From Pyrinomonadaceae bacterium (GTDB lineage Bacteria; Acidobacteriota; Blastocatellia; Pyrinomonadales; Pyrinomonadaceae): a DNA stretch of 64,000 nt. The notes under the pieces were generated by a model. That model saw only the letters and a list, made by a program, of their open reading frames with translations. It was not told where the DNA came from and searched no databases. A program made the position numbers and the translations under genes. Numbering within the stretch: position 1 is the stretch's first letter; the number at the start of each line of letters is the position of its first letter. Of the stretch, positions 33,545-46,402 are shown one piece after another. The stretch spans positions 1 to 64,000 of the forward strand of contig JAIBCA010000115.1 in NCBI GenBank assembly GCA_019694345.1, read 5' to 3'.

Positions 33545-35115
33545 TTTCTAAACATCGCCAACATGCGATTCGTGACCAAAAAGCCGCCAGCTATATTGAT
33601 CGAGGCGAGCAAAACAGCGACCGCGCCGAGAATGGTTGTCGCGTTAATAGTTGTTCCCGAAAGCTGGAGCATTCCGCCGACGAGAATGATGCCGCTGATC
33701 GCGTTCGTGACGCTCATGAGCGGGGTGTGAAGTGCCGGCTTGACGTTCCACACGACCTGGAACCCGACAAAAATAGCCAGCATGAACACCGTAAAGTGCG
33801 ATAATTTTGACTCCGGTACGACTAGGCCAAGGCCAAGCAGCACAAGCCCGACAAAGATCATTGTGACAGGGCTGACGCCTTCTCCCTCACCATGGCCGTG
33901 AGCCGGTGAGGCCTTAATGGCAACGCTGGCCGAGCTCTTGGTTGGCACGCCAGGCTCCGGCGGTGCCGGCGGCGTCGGCGGTGCCGGCGGCGGCCACATC
34001 ATCTTGCCTTCGTGGAGTACGATCGCACCGCGAACGACCTCGTCCTCAAGATCCACATGGATATCTTCACCCTTTGTCAGGTCGCCGAGCAGAGCGACAA
34101 TGGTCGCCCCATACAATTGGCTTGACATGCTTGCCATACGCGACGGAAGGTCAGTGTATCCGACGATGGTAACGCCCTTATGCGTAGCGATCTCGCCGGG
34201 TTTCGTCAAAACGCAGTTTCCGCCTTGCTCAGCGGCAAGATCGACGATCACCGAGCCAGGCTTCATCGATTCGACCATGCCCTGGGTTATCAGTTTCGGA
34301 GCCGGCTTGCCTGGGATCAAGGCCGTTGTGACAATGATGTCGACCTGCATTGCCTGGGCGGCAAACAGAGCCATTTCTGCCTTCAGAAAGTCGTCAGACA
34401 TCTGTTTGGCATAACCGCCTTTGCCTTCGCCTTCTTCTTTGATATCGAGTTCAAGAAATTCGGCTCCCATTGACGCGACCTGATCTTTGGTCGCCGACCG
34501 CGGATCGAACGCACGAACGATGGCGCCAAGGCCCTTCGCAGCACCGATCGCCGAAAGTCCGGCCACACCCGCTCCGATGACGAGGACTTTCGCAGGATCG
34601 ATGCGTCCGGCGGCGGTTATCTGTCCAGTAAAGAATCGAGGAAAATTGTTTGCCGCTTCGACGATCGCTCGGTATCCGGCAATATTGGCCATAGCGGAAA
34701 GCGTATCCATCTTTTGCGCACGCGAAATACGCGGCACACAGTCCATTCCGAAAACCGTAGCTTTACGTTTTGCGAGCAGGTCGAGAACCTCTCGGTTCTG
34801 GGCCGGCCAGACAAAGCCGATCAGCCACCCTCCTTCCTTCAGCAACTCGGCCTCGTGGACCCCGAGGTCTGGGTTTTGCTCGGGCGGGCGGACCTTCATT
34901 ATCAGGTCTGCCGCCGCCCAAAGCTCTCGTGTGTCTTCGATCACCGTTGCCCCGGCCTCACGGTATTCGCTGTCGATACAGTTAATGCCGTGGCCGGCAT
35001 GAGACTCGACAACGACCTCGAATCCGAGCTTTTTCAGTTTAAGAATGGTTTGCGGCGTTGCGGCAACGCGCTTTTCGCCGGGATGAATCTCCTTAGGGAT
35101 GCCGATTGTGGTCAT
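33541..35115 (-). CDS. pntA: NAD(P) transhydrogenase alpha subunit PntA
   Basis: 524 residues from the ATG at 35115; an in-frame TTG lies four codons upstream. Domain I (about 1-370) carries the alanine dehydrogenase-like NAD site: [17 protein letters not shown] at the start and [15 protein letters not shown] at about 170. A Pro/Ala/Gly-rich linker (about 385-405, [15 protein letters not shown]) joins it to a four-helix membrane segment (about 425-520), so the alpha1 and alpha2 parts are fused in one chain, as in E. coli and not as in split three-gene forms. It is coupled to pntB by a 4-nt overlap. Confidence 0.96.
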
Positions 35116-35396
35116 AATTACAAACAAATATATAGAACATCGACGGCACCTGCAAAACGCCGTCCGACTTTCCGCGGTGCCATGTTAGATCTCCGTTGCC
35201 TTCGGCATTTCGGGACACGGCTCCCGGCCATTGAAAACATTGAAAAACTGCCCGCAGGCCACAAAGTGACCGGACCAGAATGTCGTACTCATTCATGGTC
35301 GCCGAAATGAACGTCCCATGATGTGACGCTAATCACAGGCGGCAAAAGAAATCTGATATTTGGAAAAAAATGTTGGGATCGAGGTCCGAAAAATAA

Positions 35397-35891
35397 CTAT
35401 TTGGGGATCACTTGCATCGTGATTATGATCGTTGCATCGCCTCCGGCGGTTCGGTTGTATGACACCCAGTATCCTGCCGATGGATACCTGACCAATTTGT
35501 AGATCGATCCGTCGGCCTCCTTCTTAACGTCTTCACCGAGAACTTCTTTAGTACTTGGTGCCATCTTCAGACTTCCGGAATAATTGACAGTGATCGACTT
35601 AACCTTTTGCACTTTGTCGTAAAGTACCTGAACCGATTCGGTGTTTGAGATCGTATAAAAATCCCCAGAATTTGACCGCTGACTCGATTCGCCTAGTTTG
35701 GCCCGGGCGTCGGCCTGAGACATTCCAATGGTCACACCTTTGTATGATGTGTAAACGGGCTGCGGATCCTCTGGCGTTGGGAATGGAGCTGGCGAACCAA
35801 CCACTGCCGCATTAAGTGACAATGTGAACTGCGTCCCGCAAAAAATAATCAACGCCGAGGCGGCCGCCGCCAAAATTCCAATAATTTTCAT
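35397..35891 (-). CDS. Exported small protein with BamE-like motif
   Basis: 164 residues from the ATG at 35891, where GGGGATA lies upstream. A signal peptide or membrane anchor (residues 1-20) is followed by a short Pro-rich spacer (SPAPFPTPEDPQPV). A domain starting YKGVTIGMSQADARAKLGESS follows; this resembles the SmpA/OmlA (BamE) repeat 'I.pGms..evr..LG.P'. The rest is beta-rich (VQVLYDKVQKVKSITVNYSG, DATIIITMQVIPK). BamE-like is a motif-level suggestion. The function is unknown. The gaps on both sides (280-290 nt) hold no obvious gene. Confidence 0.6.
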   Translation of the reverse strand: MKIIGILAAAASALIIFCGTQFTLSLNAAVVGSPAPFPTPEDPQPVYTSYKGVTIGMSQADARAKLGESSQRSNSGDFYTISNTESVQVLYDKVQKVKSITVNYSGSLKMAPSTKEVLGEDVKKEADGSIYKLVRYPSAGYWVSYNRTAGGDATIIITMQVIPK

Positions 35892-36179
35892 TACACAATA
35901 TCCCCGCGTATTATCAAGAGCGCCGAACGGTGAGCACATCTCACATGCGTAGACGATCTGGAAATTTTCTTAACGTACCGATCAATGGGAAAGCTGTAAA
36001 CGTCCGAAATTATATACCTGAAAAGGGCCGTGGTGCAATAATTTTTGAACATTATTGCGGAACGCGAACGAACAGATAAATCCGCATTCATCATCCTTCA
36101 AAGTATTTCAGATTGCCCAGAGCTAGCGGTCAAACAAGGTATGTGTTGTACGCATATCGCTTGGAAAGGTTTTCCCCGA

Positions 36180-36770
36180 TCAAATACGCCAATTCCACGA
36201 ATCTAATATCGAGCCACCTAGATAGATATAGGTCATGCATAGTACTGCCTCACCGACCGCCACCGCGACGATGAATTTACCGAAATGCATCCTGGTCGTG
36301 CCGGCAAGATAACAAACAAGGTCGGTTGGAACAAAAGGGAAGAACGCCCAGCCCGACACGAAAAAAAATCCCATCGGATGTTCGAGATAATATTTGATCT
36401 TGTGAGAAAGTTCCGGTTTGTGATCTTCAAAATAATCGTCGAACCCCAAAAACTCCGAGAAATAGTAGATCATCGTCGACGACAGTAGAATTCCTGTCAT
36501 CGACACTGACAGAACCATCAGCGGCTGGGAAGGGAATAGGATCGTCCCGGCGATTACAAGCGGTGTGCTCGGAAGCAGAGTAAAGCCGCGAAAGACCGAC
36601 AACAGAATGTAGATCGCCCAGACTCCATTCTCGAAGTTTCGCAAAAGTGCGGCAATGCTGTTTGCCGAAAATGCAGACGGGTCATACAAATAGGCCGACA
36701 GACAACCGAGCGGAAGGGTTAGCCAAAGGGCAATACAGATCCGTCTGACGATGCGTGCAGGCTTTCGCAT
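36180..36770 (-). CDS. TVP38/TMEM64 (VTT/DedA-like) membrane protein
   Basis: 196 residues with about five hydrophobic segments. The VTT (SNARE-associated) domain is recognisable: FRGFTLLPSTPLVIAGTILF, a re-entrant-loop motif rich in Pro, then FFPFVPTDLVCYLAGTTRMHFGKF and IVAVAVGEAVL, which matches the conserved 'P..PxDxxsYxaGltrmxf..F' region. Relatives act as lipid scramblases or flippases in the inner membrane. It lies 25 nt after the 2OG-oxygenase gene stop on the same strand, and may be transcribed with it. Confidence 0.82.
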   Translation of the reverse strand: MRKPARIVRRICIALWLTLPLGCLSAYLYDPSAFSANSIAALLRNFENGVWAIYILLSVFRGFTLLPSTPLVIAGTILFPSQPLMVLSVSMTGILLSSTMIYYFSEFLGFDDYFEDHKPELSHKIKYYLEHPMGFFFVSGWAFFPFVPTDLVCYLAGTTRMHFGKFIVAVAVGEAVLCMTYIYLGGSILDSWNWRI

Positions 36771-36795
36771 GGTTTCGGCAGCAATGATCGGGCGA

Positions 36796-38052
36796 CTAGT
36801 CTAGCGGTCCTTCAAAATCGACAGAAACGAAATGGAAAAAAAGCGACGTGGACCGGTGGCCATCTGGCAGTTCGTTTCGAAAGTGTATGAGTTCGCGGCC
36901 CATGTAGAAAAGTCCGTCACCATTGGCGAGATTGACGGCCGCGGGGTCAGCCGCGGCCGCCTGTCGTTCGCACTCAGCCAGGGTTACGGTTTCGCCGCGG
37001 GCCGCAGCATCGTCAAAACCCAGAAGCGGCGTAACATAAATGGCCCACGGAGAAATGCCGCTCGGCGGCTCAGGTTCGTAATCCACCTGAAAGGAAATAC
37101 TGTATTCGCATTGTTTGCGATCGACATGCGGAGCAAGTACGGAACCGCCGACATAAGAGGCCGCGTACACGTATGATAATTTCACGTCAACGCCGGCTAT
37201 CAAGGACATCAGGCTCGCAAACTGATTTTGGAGCAGCCTCGCAAAGGGCTCGTTGTGCTCACGATACCTGCGTTCGACCTGATCGTCGCCAAAAGGCATG
37301 AATCCGTTGGCAACGTAGGCACGGTAGTACCTCTGCATCGCGCGCATCTGCACCCCTGGAAATAATTCCTTTAGCACCGAGTAATGGTCCTTTTGAAACT
37401 TTGCTTGGGCAACTTCGATCTCATTTCCTCGTAGCTGAGAAACTCGCCGGAGTTCAAGCGGGTCGATCAATATCCCCGCGGAAATCAAGCGACGTGCGAG
37501 GTCGATGTCGATCGGAAAGTTCGGCGACCGGCTCGCTGTTAGACGCGAAACGACTTCGGCATCGCTATCCGAGAGCCAGATTCCTTGTTCGATACCGGTC
37601 AAATCGTCTCTGATCCAAACAGATGCCGAGAATGGTGAAATATGCAGTTCCTGCGAAATCGAATGGAAGTTGCCGAGGTCGAATGGTGAAAACCTGATAC
37701 CCGGGTGGGCGATCAATGAACCAAGATCAAAATCACCCTGAAAAGGGTCGAATTCAGATAACTGGCAGCTGAAAAGCGGAAGCTCCGGCGATTCTGCCGA
37801 ATTGACAAGTACCCCATTCTCGACCAGAAGGTCACGGTCTGCCTCATCAAGGTCAAGTTCAGGATCAAGAAAGTCGAACCGCGATGCGGACAGATCCAAA
37901 AAGACGTCGAAAACATTGGGATATTCATCCCTTTTGACGACCAGATACTTCATTCCCGAGCCCGGCTTCGGGGCATAAAGTAAAAAACTGGTTGAATCGT
38001 CAAAGTATGGCTGAAATTGAAGACAAGGGTTAACTATAAGTTCCTCAGCCAT
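36796..38052 (-). CDS. Putative 2OG-Fe(II) oxygenase with unidentified N-terminal half
   Basis: 418 residues. The C-terminal part carries the iron-binding facial triad of the double-stranded beta-helix dioxygenases: HVD (His and Asp at about 309 and 311, in APHVDRKQCEYSISFQ) and a distal His at about 390 (ELIHFRNELPDGHRSTS). Arg at about 400 is the likely 2-oxoglutarate anchor. The first 200 residues are not a family I recognise. They contain two segments that end alike (LLVENGVLVNSAE and LISAGILIDPLELR), compatible with two winged-helix or PqqD-like modules. The substrate is unknown. Neighbours are gcvPB upstream and a VTT membrane protein downstream. Confidence 0.65.
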   Translation of the reverse strand: MAEELIVNPCLQFQPYFDDSTSFLLYAPKPGSGMKYLVVKRDEYPNVFDVFLDLSASRFDFLDPELDLDEADRDLLVENGVLVNSAESPELPLFSCQLSEFDPFQGDFDLGSLIAHPGIRFSPFDLGNFHSISQELHISPFSASVWIRDDLTGIEQGIWLSDSDAEVVSRLTASRSPNFPIDIDLARRLISAGILIDPLELRRVSQLRGNEIEVAQAKFQKDHYSVLKELFPGVQMRAMQRYYRAYVANGFMPFGDDQVERRYREHNEPFARLLQNQFASLMSLIAGVDVKLSYVYAASYVGGSVLAPHVDRKQCEYSISFQVDYEPEPPSGISPWAIYVTPLLGFDDAAARGETVTLAECERQAAAADPAAVNLANGDGLFYMGRELIHFRNELPDGHRSTSLFFHFVSVDFEGPLD

Positions 38053-38091
38053 AAACGTTCATTCTATCGGGCCGAAAGCGTGGCACTGTGA

Positions 38092-39624
38092 TCATGCCAT
38101 TTGTGACATCGATTCCATATCCGGCTTCCAGCGTAAGACCGGCTTTCGGGCGGCAGACGCCTCGTCGAGGCGTCCGATCCTCGTTGAGTGCGGAGCGTTG
38201 ATCACAAGTTCCGGATCTTCTTGAGCCTCACGGTCAATATCGATCATTGCATCGCAAAATGCGTCGAGATCGGCCCGACCGACCGATTCTGTCGGCTCGA
38301 TCAGCATCGCGCCTTCAACAACGAGCGGAAAATAGACGGTCATTGGGTGAAAACCGTAATCGATCAGACGTTTTGCAATGTCGAGGGTGACGACGCCACG
38401 TTTTGACTGATTTTTATGCGAGAAGATCGCCTCGTGCATACAATCTGATTCGAATGGTTTGTCAAATGTGTTCTCAAGACGCTTTGAAACATAACGGGCA
38501 TTCAGCACGGCCGTCTCTGTCGCCTCTTTCAGGCCATCGTCGCCGTGGGTATAAATATACGACAAAGCCCGGATCATCATTCCAAAATTCCCGTAGAACG
38601 CCTTGACTCGCCCAATGCTGGTCGGAACATTGTATTCGAGCCGGTAGCTCATCGGGCCGGCATTATTCTCATCGGCGATGATCCGCGGAACCGGCAGGTA
38701 TGGAGCCAACTCGGCGGTGCAACAGCACGGGCCGCAACCCGGGCCGCCGCCGCCGTGGGGTGTCGAGAAGGTCTTGTGCAGATTGAGATGAATTACGTCG
38801 ACTCCCATATCACCCGGACGAGCAACGCCAACGAGGGCATTCATATTGGCACCATCCATATAAACGAGTCCCCCCGCAGCATGGATCACCTCGCAAATCT
38901 CTTTAATATTTTTTTCAAAGATGCCGACAGTGTTAGGATTGGTTAGCATCAGGCCAGCCACCCCACCCTCGTTACATAACTGCCTAAGGTGGTCCATGTC
39001 GGTAAATCCATCGGGCGTCGAGTGGATCGTCTTGACCGTAAAACCAGCCAATGCGGCCGATGCGGGGTTGGTGCCGTGAGCGGAATCCGGGATGAGCATC
39101 ACACGCCGATCCTTAGACGCCTCGCCATCCCGGTGATCCAGGAATGCACGAATGAGCATAACGCCGGTCATTTCGCCCTGAGCCCCTGCAGCCGGCTGGA
39201 GCGATACACCCGGAAGTCCGGTGATCTCGGCGAGATCTTCTTGAAGACGGTACATCAATTCGAGAGCTCCCTGCGATTCGGTCTCCGGGGCAAGCGGGTG
39301 AAGTCCGGCAAAGCCACCGATCCGGGCCATCTTTTCATTGAGCCGTGAATTGTACTTCATTGTGCAGGAACCAAGCGGATACATGCCCAGATCGATCGAA
39401 TAATTCCACGTGGAAATGCGAGTAAAATGTCTGATGACGTCCACCTCGGATACCTCCGGCACTCCATCCAAGCCATCAGTGCGGAGAAGTTCCGCCGGCA
39501 GGGCATTCGGGGTTTCCGGAACATCGAGTTTCGGCAATCGATAGCCGACACGTCCGGTCTGTGAGCGGTCAAAGATCAATCCTTCGTTCTGGGTAGGGTG
39601 CTGAGTTACTTTCTTGATCGACAT
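38092..39624 (-). CDS. gcvPB: Glycine dehydrogenase (decarboxylating) subunit 2, GcvPB
   Basis: 510 residues, the C-terminal half of the split P protein. With GcvPA it decarboxylates glycine on pyridoxal phosphate and passes the aminomethyl group to lipoyl-GcvH. The PLP lysine is in HLNLHKTFSTPHGGGGPG (about 283), followed by the glycine-rich loop typical of the family. The early motif DLGMYPLGSCTMKYN is also conserved. It is the last gcv gene of this cluster, separated from gcvPA by about 3.7 kb holding four other genes on the same strand. Confidence 0.96.
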   Translation of the reverse strand: MSIKKVTQHPTQNEGLIFDRSQTGRVGYRLPKLDVPETPNALPAELLRTDGLDGVPEVSEVDVIRHFTRISTWNYSIDLGMYPLGSCTMKYNSRLNEKMARIGGFAGLHPLAPETESQGALELMYRLQEDLAEITGLPGVSLQPAAGAQGEMTGVMLIRAFLDHRDGEASKDRRVMLIPDSAHGTNPASAALAGFTVKTIHSTPDGFTDMDHLRQLCNEGGVAGLMLTNPNTVGIFEKNIKEICEVIHAAGGLVYMDGANMNALVGVARPGDMGVDVIHLNLHKTFSTPHGGGGPGCGPCCCTAELAPYLPVPRIIADENNAGPMSYRLEYNVPTSIGRVKAFYGNFGMMIRALSYIYTHGDDGLKEATETAVLNARYVSKRLENTFDKPFESDCMHEAIFSHKNQSKRGVVTLDIAKRLIDYGFHPMTVYFPLVVEGAMLIEPTESVGRADLDAFCDAMIDIDREAQEDPELVINAPHSTRIGRLDEASAARKPVLRWKPDMESMSQMA

Positions 39625-41863: not shown

Positions 41864-43183
41864 TCAGGCTTTGGGCAGACCTTTCTTTGCGATATCCGTG
41901 ACGATCTCGCAGAAACGGTCAAGTTCCCAGAGCGTCGTGTAAACATTCGGCGTAATGCGAATGCCGGTAAATTCTTCGTGCACGATAGGGGTCGTAAATA
42001 TCTTGTGTTTGGACATTAGATACGAGCCGATCGCGACCGGATCTATGCCGTCGATCTTAAAATTGGCGATCGCACACGACTGTATTGGGTCGAAGGACGT
42101 GTTAAAACCGATCTTCGGCACGTCCTTGAGTTTGTTCATCCAATATCGCGATAAATAGCGGAGCCGCTCTTCTTTGCGTTTGCCGCCGATGGCGTTGTGG
42201 AAAAGGATCGCTTCGCCGATCGCAAGACGCATTGCGGCTGAATGCGTGCCAATCTCTTCGAATTTGCGGATGTCGTTCTTGTTCTTATCCTCAGAAGCCA
42301 TCAGAGCCCAGATCTTGGCGATCTTATCCCTTTTTACGTAGAGCATTCCAGTTCCCTTAGGTGCATAGATCCACTTGTGCAGGGAAGTGCCGTAATAGTC
42401 GCACCCGAGATCGGCTTGCTTGAAATCGAACTGGGCAAATGCATGTGCTCCGTCGACAATCGTCTCAATGCCGCGGGCACGAGCCATATCACATATTTTC
42501 TTAACGGGGATGATCTGACCGGTCAGATTGATCTGATGCGATACGAGAATTAGTTTTGTTCTCGGTGTAACGCCCCGCTCGAATGCGGTCGCAATATCAT
42601 CGACATTCGCCGGTGCGATTGGGATCTTAATAAGTTTTAGTTTCAGGCCCTCGCGCAACTCACGCTGTCTAAGAGTGGTCAACATTCGCGGATAGTCCTG
42701 TGTCGTCGTCAGGATCTCATCACCCGACTTAAAATCAAGACCCATTAGTAGAGTCTCAAGCGACTCTGAAGCATTTCGCGTGATAGCGATCTCTTCCGCC
42801 GAACAGCCGAAAACCTCAGCAAGTCCCGTTCGGACCGTTTCGGACTGCGGTTCCAGTAGCTGCCACATTGTATAGGCTGTCGCGTCTTCCTGCTGCCATG
42901 TATACCGGACAAATGCCTCCGTCACCATTCGCGGGCTCGGGCTGACCCCGCCATTGTTCAGATTGACGATACCGCGTGTAACCGAAAATGCCTGTTGAAT
43001 GGTCGCCCAATAATCCTCGTCGAGAGCAGCCTCCGCCGGCGAAAGTCGAGCGATCGATCTTCCCGCCGCCTGAACATCACTGAACAAAGATGCGACGGTC
43101 ACTGATGACAAGGCGGCCAAGCCGAGCCCCTTGCCAACGTTTGATAGAAAACTTCTTCGGTTGATGTCGTTCCTGATTACCAT
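41864..43183 (-). CDS. Tat-exported class V aminotransferase-fold PLP enzyme
   Basis: 439 residues from the ATG at 43183, which has GGAGG upstream. The N terminus is a twin-arginine signal (NDINRRSFLSNVGKG, then a weakly hydrophobic stretch and QAAG), so the folded, cofactor-loaded enzyme should cross the inner membrane. The rest is an aminotransferase class V domain (kynureninase/isopenicillin N epimerase-like): VNLNNGGVSPSP, ITRNASESLETLLMGL, VDGAHAFAQFDF and the PLP lysine in YYGTSLHKWIYAPKGTG (about 270). Reaction and substrate are unknown. It is directly preceded by a 34-residue membrane protein and followed by glycosylation genes. Confidence 0.85.
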   Translation of the reverse strand: MVIRNDINRRSFLSNVGKGLGLAALSSVTVASLFSDVQAAGRSIARLSPAEAALDEDYWATIQQAFSVTRGIVNLNNGGVSPSPRMVTEAFVRYTWQQEDATAYTMWQLLEPQSETVRTGLAEVFGCSAEEIAITRNASESLETLLMGLDFKSGDEILTTTQDYPRMLTTLRQRELREGLKLKLIKIPIAPANVDDIATAFERGVTPRTKLILVSHQINLTGQIIPVKKICDMARARGIETIVDGAHAFAQFDFKQADLGCDYYGTSLHKWIYAPKGTGMLYVKRDKIAKIWALMASEDKNKNDIRKFEEIGTHSAAMRLAIGEAILFHNAIGGKRKEERLRYLSRYWMNKLKDVPKIGFNTSFDPIQSCAIANFKIDGIDPVAIGSYLMSKHKIFTTPIVHEEFTGIRITPNVYTTLWELDRFCEIVTDIAKKGLPKA

Positions 43184-45328: not shown

Positions 45329-46402
45329 TTAATTTGTAGACCGCCTGACCTTGAATTTCACGTGGATCCGGCCGCGAACAATGTTGCCTGCGGCATCAGC
45401 TGAGTAAATGGCCGAATTCATCACTCCGGTCGAGAGATCTGGCGTCAGATCCTGAACGATCACCTCACCTCCGCATTTTGCCTTAAAAGTCTCGGAATGA
45501 AGTTCGCCGCAGCCTGCACCATTGTTTATCGAACGCAGAAATAGGTTGATGCCCGTCTGATCGTCCGCGTCTAGCGGATGGCGCCCAAGGTTCCACCCCT
45601 TGAATGAGAAGCTAAGTTCCTCTCCGATCGGAGCTATAGTGCCGGGTTTGGGGGCTCCCGCAAGTGACTTTAGTCCGCTGATCGTGTAAACGGAAAGGTC
45701 CTGTTTCGCATCATAAAATGATCGGGCATTAGCGCTCAGAGCTTCAAGATTGATATCGGCCCGTTCCTTTTCCATCATTTTCTTTGCGGCTTCGAGCTTC
45801 TCAAGCGTCCCGGGCGGCAAATTTTTTACTACCCTCGGATCCATACCTGCAACAGCAGGCAATTTGACTGCATCGGTGACCACGGTCGTGTACCGGGCAT
45901 CCTTAAGCCCGATTCCGGGAATGTTAATGATGACAAGATTGTCAGAGTCGGCGATCTGGATGGTTTCGAATAAGATCACCTTTGGCAGGTAGGGAAGCAA
46001 CGGCATCAGTTCAACCGTTACAACGCACTTTTTCCCGGCGGGCAACGCTTTCGGGGCGGTAAAGTTATATGTTGCGTCATCGATCCCGACCAGAATTCCG
46101 CCGCCGTCAACAACTTTCCAATTGGCGAACTTGTAATATGGATTCCCCGGCCCAAGGACGCGGTCGAACGGAACCGAGTCTTTCTTTACCTTTCCATCCT
46201 CTCCCTTTGGATAGATCAGCATACGAACTCGAAGCGGAGTCGATTCACCGACATCGAGAAGTCCTTTTTCGGCCTCGAGCGTAAGGTTCTGGCCTTTTTC
46301 AGCGATCGTTTGGTCGCGTTCAAGTTCAGAGACCGCGTCCTTTTGGGCAACGATCACTAATGGGATCGATAAAGTTACAATAATGCTTAATAGGGTCTTC
46401 AT
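45329..46402 (-). CDS. Secreted protein of unknown function
   Basis: 357 residues with a signal peptide (residues 1-19, ending IVAQ). The mature protein has beta-sandwich-like segments (GLLDVGESTPLRVRMLIYP, ALPAGKKCVVTVELMP) and a short charged helical region (TLEKLEAAKKMMEKERAD, about 205-222). A C-terminal domain with two Cys (GCGELHSETFKAKCGG) follows. It has no family I recognise. It is placed between gcvH and the next secreted-protein gene; a terminator hairpin after gcvH suggests that it may have its own promoter. Confidence 0.65.
   Translation of the reverse strand: MKTLLSIIVTLSIPLVIVAQKDAVSELERDQTIAEKGQNLTLEAEKGLLDVGESTPLRVRMLIYPKGEDGKVKKDSVPFDRVLGPGNPYYKFANWKVVDGGGILVGIDDATYNFTAPKALPAGKKCVVTVELMPLLPYLPKVILFETIQIADSDNLVIINIPGIGLKDARYTTVVTDAVKLPAVAGMDPRVVKNLPPGTLEKLEAAKKMMEKERADINLEALSANARSFYDAKQDLSVYTISGLKSLAGAPKPGTIAPIGEELSFSFKGWNLGRHPLDADDQTGINLFLRSINNGAGCGELHSETFKAKCGGEVIVQDLTPDLSTGVMNSAIYSADAAGNIVRGRIHVKFKVRRSTN

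Follow-up and report, generated by a model that had tools for sequence, protein, structure and literature searches.

A PhyH-type oxygenase with a duplicated, likely RRE-like module in Pyrinomonadaceae and its candidate peptide substrates

Introduction

What might an oxygenase act on when its N-terminal half resembles no described family? The question is raised by a gene in a 64,000-nucleotide stretch of a Pyrinomonadaceae bacterium genome (contig JAIBCA010000115.1, positions 1 to 64,000; here, the window). The original prediction described its product as a probable 2-oxoglutarate (2OG)-Fe(II) oxygenase whose unrecognized first half could hold two small modules that bind a peptide. The oxygenase and two small modules resembling RiPP recognition elements (RREs; hence RRE-like) stood up to analysis, whereas the proposed arginine near residue 400, a PqqD match, and a peptide gene at the window locus did not. 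Our favored reading, which we regard as rather probable, is that the protein is a cytoplasmic PhyH-type Fe(II)/2OG oxygenase with a duplicated RRE-like module that docks and tailors what are presumably peptides.

Results

Gene, locus, and distribution

The gene, predicted to encode tandem RRE-like modules followed by a PhyH-type 2OG-Fe(II) oxygenase domain, occupies positions 36796 to 38052 on the minus strand; as originally described, the open reading frame (ORF) starts with ATG and has a product of 418 amino acids. Neither Pfam nor NCBIfam models matched the window protein, phmmer found no match among PDB sequences, and the three PDB matches of a seven-row full-length profile were all due to chance; the earlier claim that the N-terminal half lacks a known match thus holds for these collections. 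As a single query, the window protein recovered no relative among 12 stretches returned for related loci or among 40 returned from viral contigs. A three-row profile detected relatives in 12 of 162 genomes at the class level, and a seven-row profile detected them in 8 of the 396 genomes in a phylum sample.

Within the genus, window-type proteins were found in 3 of 41 genomes, counting the window's own. The two congeneric relatives are 49% and 42% identical to the window protein, and none of the three copies is interrupted: the ORFs span 388 to 418 amino acids and retain every metal ligand. The arrangement of two N-terminal modules plus oxygenase occurs in seven genomes (the window genome, G004, G013, G109, G082, G106, and G079), the last with two partial copies, each ended by a contig end, that differ at 3 of 144 shared residues.

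The window gene is flanked by gcvPB on one side and by the gene for a VTT-domain protein, followed by pntAB, on the other. The interval between gcvPB and pntA (window positions 35096 to 38095) holds this oxygenase in three genomes of the genus, and its contents downstream of gcvPB differ among eight oxygenase-free congeners, where we found a VTT-like gene, a 514-amino-acid membrane-like protein, or an SRPBCC-like protein (names assigned by eye); the locus is therefore accessory. In the three carriers it is an orphan gene: no small ORF around it is conserved, no peptide gene adjoins it, and BLAST comparison of the 27 small intergenic ORFs found nothing shared from one locus to another at E values up to 1. 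As no precursor peptide gene was found beside the enzyme at the three congeneric loci, we rejected the idea that the window locus is a RiPP cluster. The suggestion that neighbors of homologues would include a small peptide was borne out in several relatives, which have RiPP-type or peptide neighbors (see below), and failed at the window locus and in two congeners. A PvdN-like PLP enzyme with a Tat-like N terminus is encoded close to the oxygenase gene in the window genus and likewise in G079, which belongs to another genus (window 41867 to 43183, L033:10114-11466, and L007:5789-7102; 149 and 146 bits against a cutoff of 650).

The C-terminal oxygenase domain

From its profile relationships, the C-terminal half (approximately residues 205 to 418; positions 36799 to 37440, minus strand) is almost certainly a 2OG-Fe(II) oxygenase of the PhyH type. 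The HxD iron ligands H309 and D311 (37120 to 37128, minus strand) and the distal ligand H390, which opens an HxR motif ending in R392 (36877 to 36885, minus strand), lie where the HVD and His had been proposed. In an alignment of 18 homologues, proteobacterial and cyanophage proteins among them, all 18 agree at seven positions (Y300, L306, H309, D311, W336, H390, and R392), and the same seven are each conserved in 19/19 rows of a second alignment. R400 (36853 to 36855, minus strand), about 10 residues past the distal His, is present as first noted but not conserved: among the seven two-module copies that cover the position the residues are R, S, R, Q, Q, A, and T (2/7 R), and 3 of 19 homologues have R. 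It was therefore rejected as a conserved 2OG anchor. R392 of the invariant HxR may be the better candidate for the 2OG-binding Arg and could replace it.

The proposed HMM comparison supported the assignment. A 19-row profile of the C-terminal domain aligned over 176 columns with 22 PhyH rows drawn from related genomes (hhalign, E = 2.5e-7), with the two HxD motifs aligned to each other and H390 matched to the distal His. The E values were 4.7e-4 against AlkB-type and 0.1 against PF13640-type oxygenases, and reversed controls gave 0.3 to 0.4 (0.42 for PhyH). Nine weak PDB profile matches (E = 0.03 to 1.4), eight of them 2OG oxygenases (CurA, AusE, three PrhA variants, SnoK, PhyH, and PHYHD1), span only the stretch before the metal ligands and are a hint only; remoter homologues reach 2OG-FeII_Oxy_2 at scores under its cutoff. 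A full-length AlphaFold2 model from a three-row alignment had a mean pLDDT of 54.6, and a Foldseek search with it returned nothing below an E value of 0.001. Most of its C-terminal half fell below 50, so the DSBH fold is a putative one, predicted through the profile match.

Phage proteins named ferrochelatase

The only family match of the window protein was to PHROG phrog_2954, named ferrochelatase, and it was confined to the C-terminal half (residues 218 to 411, E = 4.6e-20). The phrog_2954 phage protein has the same HxD/HxR, and the N-terminal modules are missing from both phage proteins examined. Marine phage proteins at L118:3022-3627 and L117:2980-4260 (phrog_2954 and phrog_3531, both families named ferrochelatase) share the HxD...HxR oxygenase domain of the window protein's C-terminal half; in cyanophage S-SCSM2R, a PF13640-type oxygenase is naturally fused to the homologue, and phrog_3531 matches both parts. 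The L118 protein matched no Pfam family at E values up to 0.5, and the Pfam ferrochelatase model PF00762, positive in 8 of 14 control genomes, found nothing in either whole phage record. Given the HxD/HxR and the absence of PF00762 from both records, we rejected "ferrochelatase" for the C-terminal domain, and the name looks wrong for phrog_2954 itself. According to one study, phrog2954 "ferrochelatases" occur together with phrog61 2OG oxygenases, and seasonal marine viruses are enriched in both (PMC11561400); our evidence, from two phages, is that the two are probably paired oxygenases. In marine phages the phrog_2954 domain is interpreted as an auxiliary metabolic gene, and a corrected name would alter ecological interpretations.

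Two N-terminal modules

By profile comparison, a single module, present twice, makes up the N-terminal half, and the likeness of its copies is beyond chance. Module 1 covers residues 1 to 88 (37789 to 38052, minus strand) and module 2 approximately residues 92 to 200 (37453 to 37779, minus strand). The similarity of their ends, NGVLVNSAE (residues 79 to 87; 37792 to 37818, minus strand) and AGILIDPLE (residues 192 to 200; 37453 to 37479, minus strand), had prompted the idea of paired modules, and the starts are alike too (LIVNP and LIAHP). In a profile-profile alignment, 76 columns of module 2 aligned with module 1 (score 22.09, E = 0.0036), a score equaled by none of 300 column shuffles (best, 20.84) and well above the reversed control (9.7).

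An AlphaFold2 model of residues 1 to 208 from three sequences (mean pLDDT, 73) shows, for each half, three strands and then helices. Module 1 is modeled with strands at residues 12 to 15, 22 to 29, and 33 to 40, helices at 45 to 54, 56 to 61, 64 to 67, and 70 to 78, and a final strand at 82 to 84. Module 2 is modeled with strands at 119 to 123, 143 to 148, and 155 to 160 and only two assigned helices (162 to 168 and 183 to 191), with pLDDT under 50 for residues 124 to 140. Foldseek found nothing below an E value of 0.001 with this model (best, 0.058). When the best 1000 Foldseek chains were realigned with VIA-align, the nearest solved folds were McbB (Z = 6.1), TbiB1 (5.2), and 3dee (4.6) for module 1, and GdmN (4.6), MccB (4.5), NovN (4.4), ThcOx (4.3), TruD (4.0), and NO66 (3.8) for module 2. 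We take 9 of the 13 top rows (those of McbB, TbiB1, 3dee, MccB, ThcOx, and TruD) to be RRE-bearing chains; RRE rows score from 6.1 to 3.8 for module 1 and from 4.5 to 2.7 for module 2, modest values in a range (Z < 8) that can reflect merely a common arrangement. PqqD is not among the rows listed, which excludes nothing.

The available text of one report identifies 3dee as an RRE-bearing chain and defines an RRE as three strands and then three helices forming a winged helix (PMC12710340), a definition that the predicted model of module 1 fits. In our judgment, what counts is the prominence of RiPP-enzyme recognition domains among the top fold matches of both halves, not Z alone, and on these models both modules are likely RRE-like. 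Structure prediction and fold search thus returned the strand-then-helix order with RREs high among the matches, and an unrelated fold did not appear.

The alternative wording of the original prediction, PqqD-like, fared less well at the level of sequence profiles. Against 15 PqqD rows (hhalign without secondary structure), the modules gave E values of 0.12 and 0.27 and probabilities of 0.5 and 0.2%, whereas the leaders of the peptides described below, used as a positive control, matched PqqD at 94.6%. A profile match to PqqD, assessed with HHpred, is the criterion of RRE-Finder 2020 in the part of that description available to us, and we therefore call the modules RRE-like rather than RREs.

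The modules recur in other arrangements. Genomes G239, G272, and G280, from another Acidobacteriota family, have module 2 and the oxygenase only, and a plasmid gene of Eleftheria terrae (L022:8795-10918) fuses a sulfotransferase to module 2 (RRE-like) and the oxygenase. The Eleftheria fusion adjoins another 2OG oxygenase, and an Asp/Asn hydroxylase and a pyruvyl transferase lie a few genes off. Homologues in G114 to G116 have a different first module, PqqD-like by eye and without a profile match to PqqD. The 512-amino-acid homologue of Burkholderia glumae begins with a module matching module 1 (E = 2.5e-4) and has another matching module 2 (E = 4e-10); the intervening segment resembles neither convincingly (E = 0.04).

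Peptide genes beside the oxygenase in other genera

Outside the window genus, three of the four copies with a sequenced upstream flank (G109, G082, and G106) have, as the nearest upstream ORF of at least 90 amino acids and on the same strand, a gene whose product combines a PqqD-like domain, a Tat-like signal recognized by eye (SRRxxxKK...), an AxA site, and a tail rich in Cys (PqqD-Tat-Cys). This gene lies within ~100 bp of the oxygenase gene in G082 and G106. In G109 it is 0.5 kb away, with ORFs of 64 and 45 amino acids intervening, and only the second half of its leader is readable, stops preceding it before the contig end; this leader half looks damaged or misassembled. G106 has a second peptide copy 1.3 kb downstream, with an HprK-related gene (63 bits against the NCBIfam cutoff of 200) in between. 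No peptide gene adjoins the one of the two G079 copies whose upstream flank is known. Under random placement, the joint chance of the three adjacencies is ~6e-9, an estimate that multiplies the three positive genomes only and leaves aside the misses (the G079 copy and three congeneric loci). A profile of the peptide family gave 44 matches in G109, 40 in G082, 4 in G106, and 8 in G079, counts that include fragments and a few sequences with stops.

In the window genus, each of the seven genomes searched, including the window's own, has one peptide gene (partial in G009). Four of these seven lack the oxygenase, and a dedicated pairing within the genus is therefore not demonstrated. The single PqqD-Tat-Cys gene of the window genome is on contig C124 (L066:9360-9884; PqqD, 34.2 bits against a cutoff of 23.4), with the peptide at contig positions 45446 to 45841. 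In L066:8406-10784 it is flanked by an NTP_transf_5 gene on one side and on the other by an HprK_rel_A-like gene (60 bits against a cutoff of 200). The same gene order was read in G004, G013, and G010. Large families that combine a PqqD domain, a Tat-like signal, and a variable Cys-rich tail were seen in G109 and G082 and also at L026, L027, L072, and L073. Our literature search found no description of PqqD proteins with Tat signals or Cys-rich tails.

A second oxygenase at some loci

In G239, G272, G280, G131, UR115, Eleftheria, and cyanophage S-MbCM6, the gene immediately upstream of the homologue codes for a PF13640-type 2OG oxygenase. With the S-SCSM2R fusion as an eighth case, this pairing was present at 7 of the 12 loci inspected outside the two-module group, which come from similarity hits rather than a random sample and exclude the neighbors of G115 and G437; it was not seen at G101, G114, G116, or B. 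glumae. A PF13640-type profile found no match in the window genome (E, 0.001), G004, G079, or G109, and we rejected the partner as a general requirement because the window genome has no match to it. In G082, all four hits of this profile are less than 440 bp away from a peptide gene, a count from one genome in which one hit has an internal stop and two share a cluster. At L072, two further such oxygenases, not reported by the profile, alternate with peptide genes. Around the UR115 (Hyphomicrobiales) homologue lie genes for the PF13640 oxygenase, a sulfotransferase, an ATP-grasp protein, and two proteins that score below NCBIfam cutoffs, a lasso-cyclase-like Asn synthetase and an HprK-like kinase (40 bits against 200).

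Discussion

Peptides are not the only conceivable target. The enzyme might instead hydroxylate a small molecule or a carrier-bound intermediate of the NRPS/PKS type, with the modules binding a carrier protein or a partner enzyme. The PhyH type does include small-molecule tailoring oxygenases (the weak PDB matches AusE, PrhA, SnoK, and CurA), the B. glumae homologue sits in an NRPS cluster, and that of G272 lies ~2 kb from a long ORF judged PKS-like by eye. We nevertheless think this unlikely: peptide genes adjoin the oxygenase in three genera, UR115 has a lasso-like context, RREs head the fold matches of the modules (though the carbamoyltransferases GdmN and NovN are among them), and no NRPS or PKS gene was recognized by eye among the window ORFs. 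Since some homologues occur in NRPS/PKS-like surroundings or in phage genomes, substrates may differ across the family.

A folded protein, as for ribosomal oxygenases, or a secreted structural protein could also be modified together with a PF13640-type partner, the modules then being generic winged helices. This would suit the appearance of the ribosomal oxygenase NO66 among the module 2 matches, the frequent upstream partner outside the two-module group, and cyanophage S-MbCM6, in which the oxygenase pair comes after three "sericin-like" proteins. We consider it improbable, as the Z score of NO66 is below those of most RRE rows and the partner profile is unmatched in the four genomes named above. 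That the gene is accessory or decaying, with no present function in the genus, would fit its presence in so few congeners at a site of varying gene content, but three intact ORFs that have diverged this far and kept all metal ligands make it very hard to believe.

We thus return to peptide tailoring. One or both modules would bind the leader segment or the PqqD-type leader domain of a peptide precursor, and such docking by these putative modules is on balance likely. The iron, held by H309, D311, and H390, would then use O2 and 2OG, the latter perhaps anchored by the invariant R392, and a residue of the peptide core would be hydroxylated. The PqqD-Tat-Cys precursors adjoining orthologous genes in three other genera are a reasonable but unproven candidate substrate; in the window organism, we infer that the enzyme would act in trans on the genome's single PqqD-Tat-Cys peptide.

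Several known systems offer comparisons. JmjC enzymes are 2OG-Fe(II) oxygenases, and CanE, a lasso peptide 2OG hydroxylase, is reportedly another 2OG oxygenase acting on a RiPP, a likeness drawn from its description only. With the RREs of PqqD, TbiB1, McbB, MccB, ThcOx, and TruD, both modules seem to share their fold by prediction, and module 1 shares the strand-strand-strand-helix order; unlike them, the modules have no PqqD profile match, are duplicated, and are fused to a PhyH-type oxygenase. The C-terminal domain aligns with PF05721 (the phytanoyl-CoA dioxygenase family) across the whole domain, with HxD and the distal His in register, but the window protein has no Pfam match itself, carries the invariant HxR, and has an Arg about 10 residues after the His that is not conserved among homologues. 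The closest precedent is a set of fusions, as given in the available part of their report, in which an RRE-like domain is likewise joined to a JmjC-annotated domain (PF08007) and whose closest bacterial homologues stand in RiPP-like contexts (PMC12710340). They differ in that JmjC is not of the PhyH type and in that this part of the report does not describe tandem modules (PMC12710340); PF08007 was unmatched in our Pfam scans. Because such fusions have already been reported, the PhyH-type fusion is a variation on them and not a wholly new kind, and our literature search found no description of RRE-PhyH fusions.

More broadly, and only tentatively, PhyH-type oxygenases with one, two, or perhaps three tandem RRE-like modules may form an unrecognized peptide-tailoring family in Acidobacteriota and Pseudomonadota. 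Some of its acidobacterial members would act on a large family of secreted peptides, rich in Cys, in which an entire PqqD domain with a Tat-like signal after it makes up the leader. If this is true, the leader would bear its own recognition domain, and the peptide would be modified in the cytoplasm and then exported. RRE-fused enzymes are one of the main routes to new peptide natural products, and a PhyH-type oxygenase with duplicated RRE-like modules beside PqqD-headed Cys-rich peptides would offer a testable enzyme-substrate pair.
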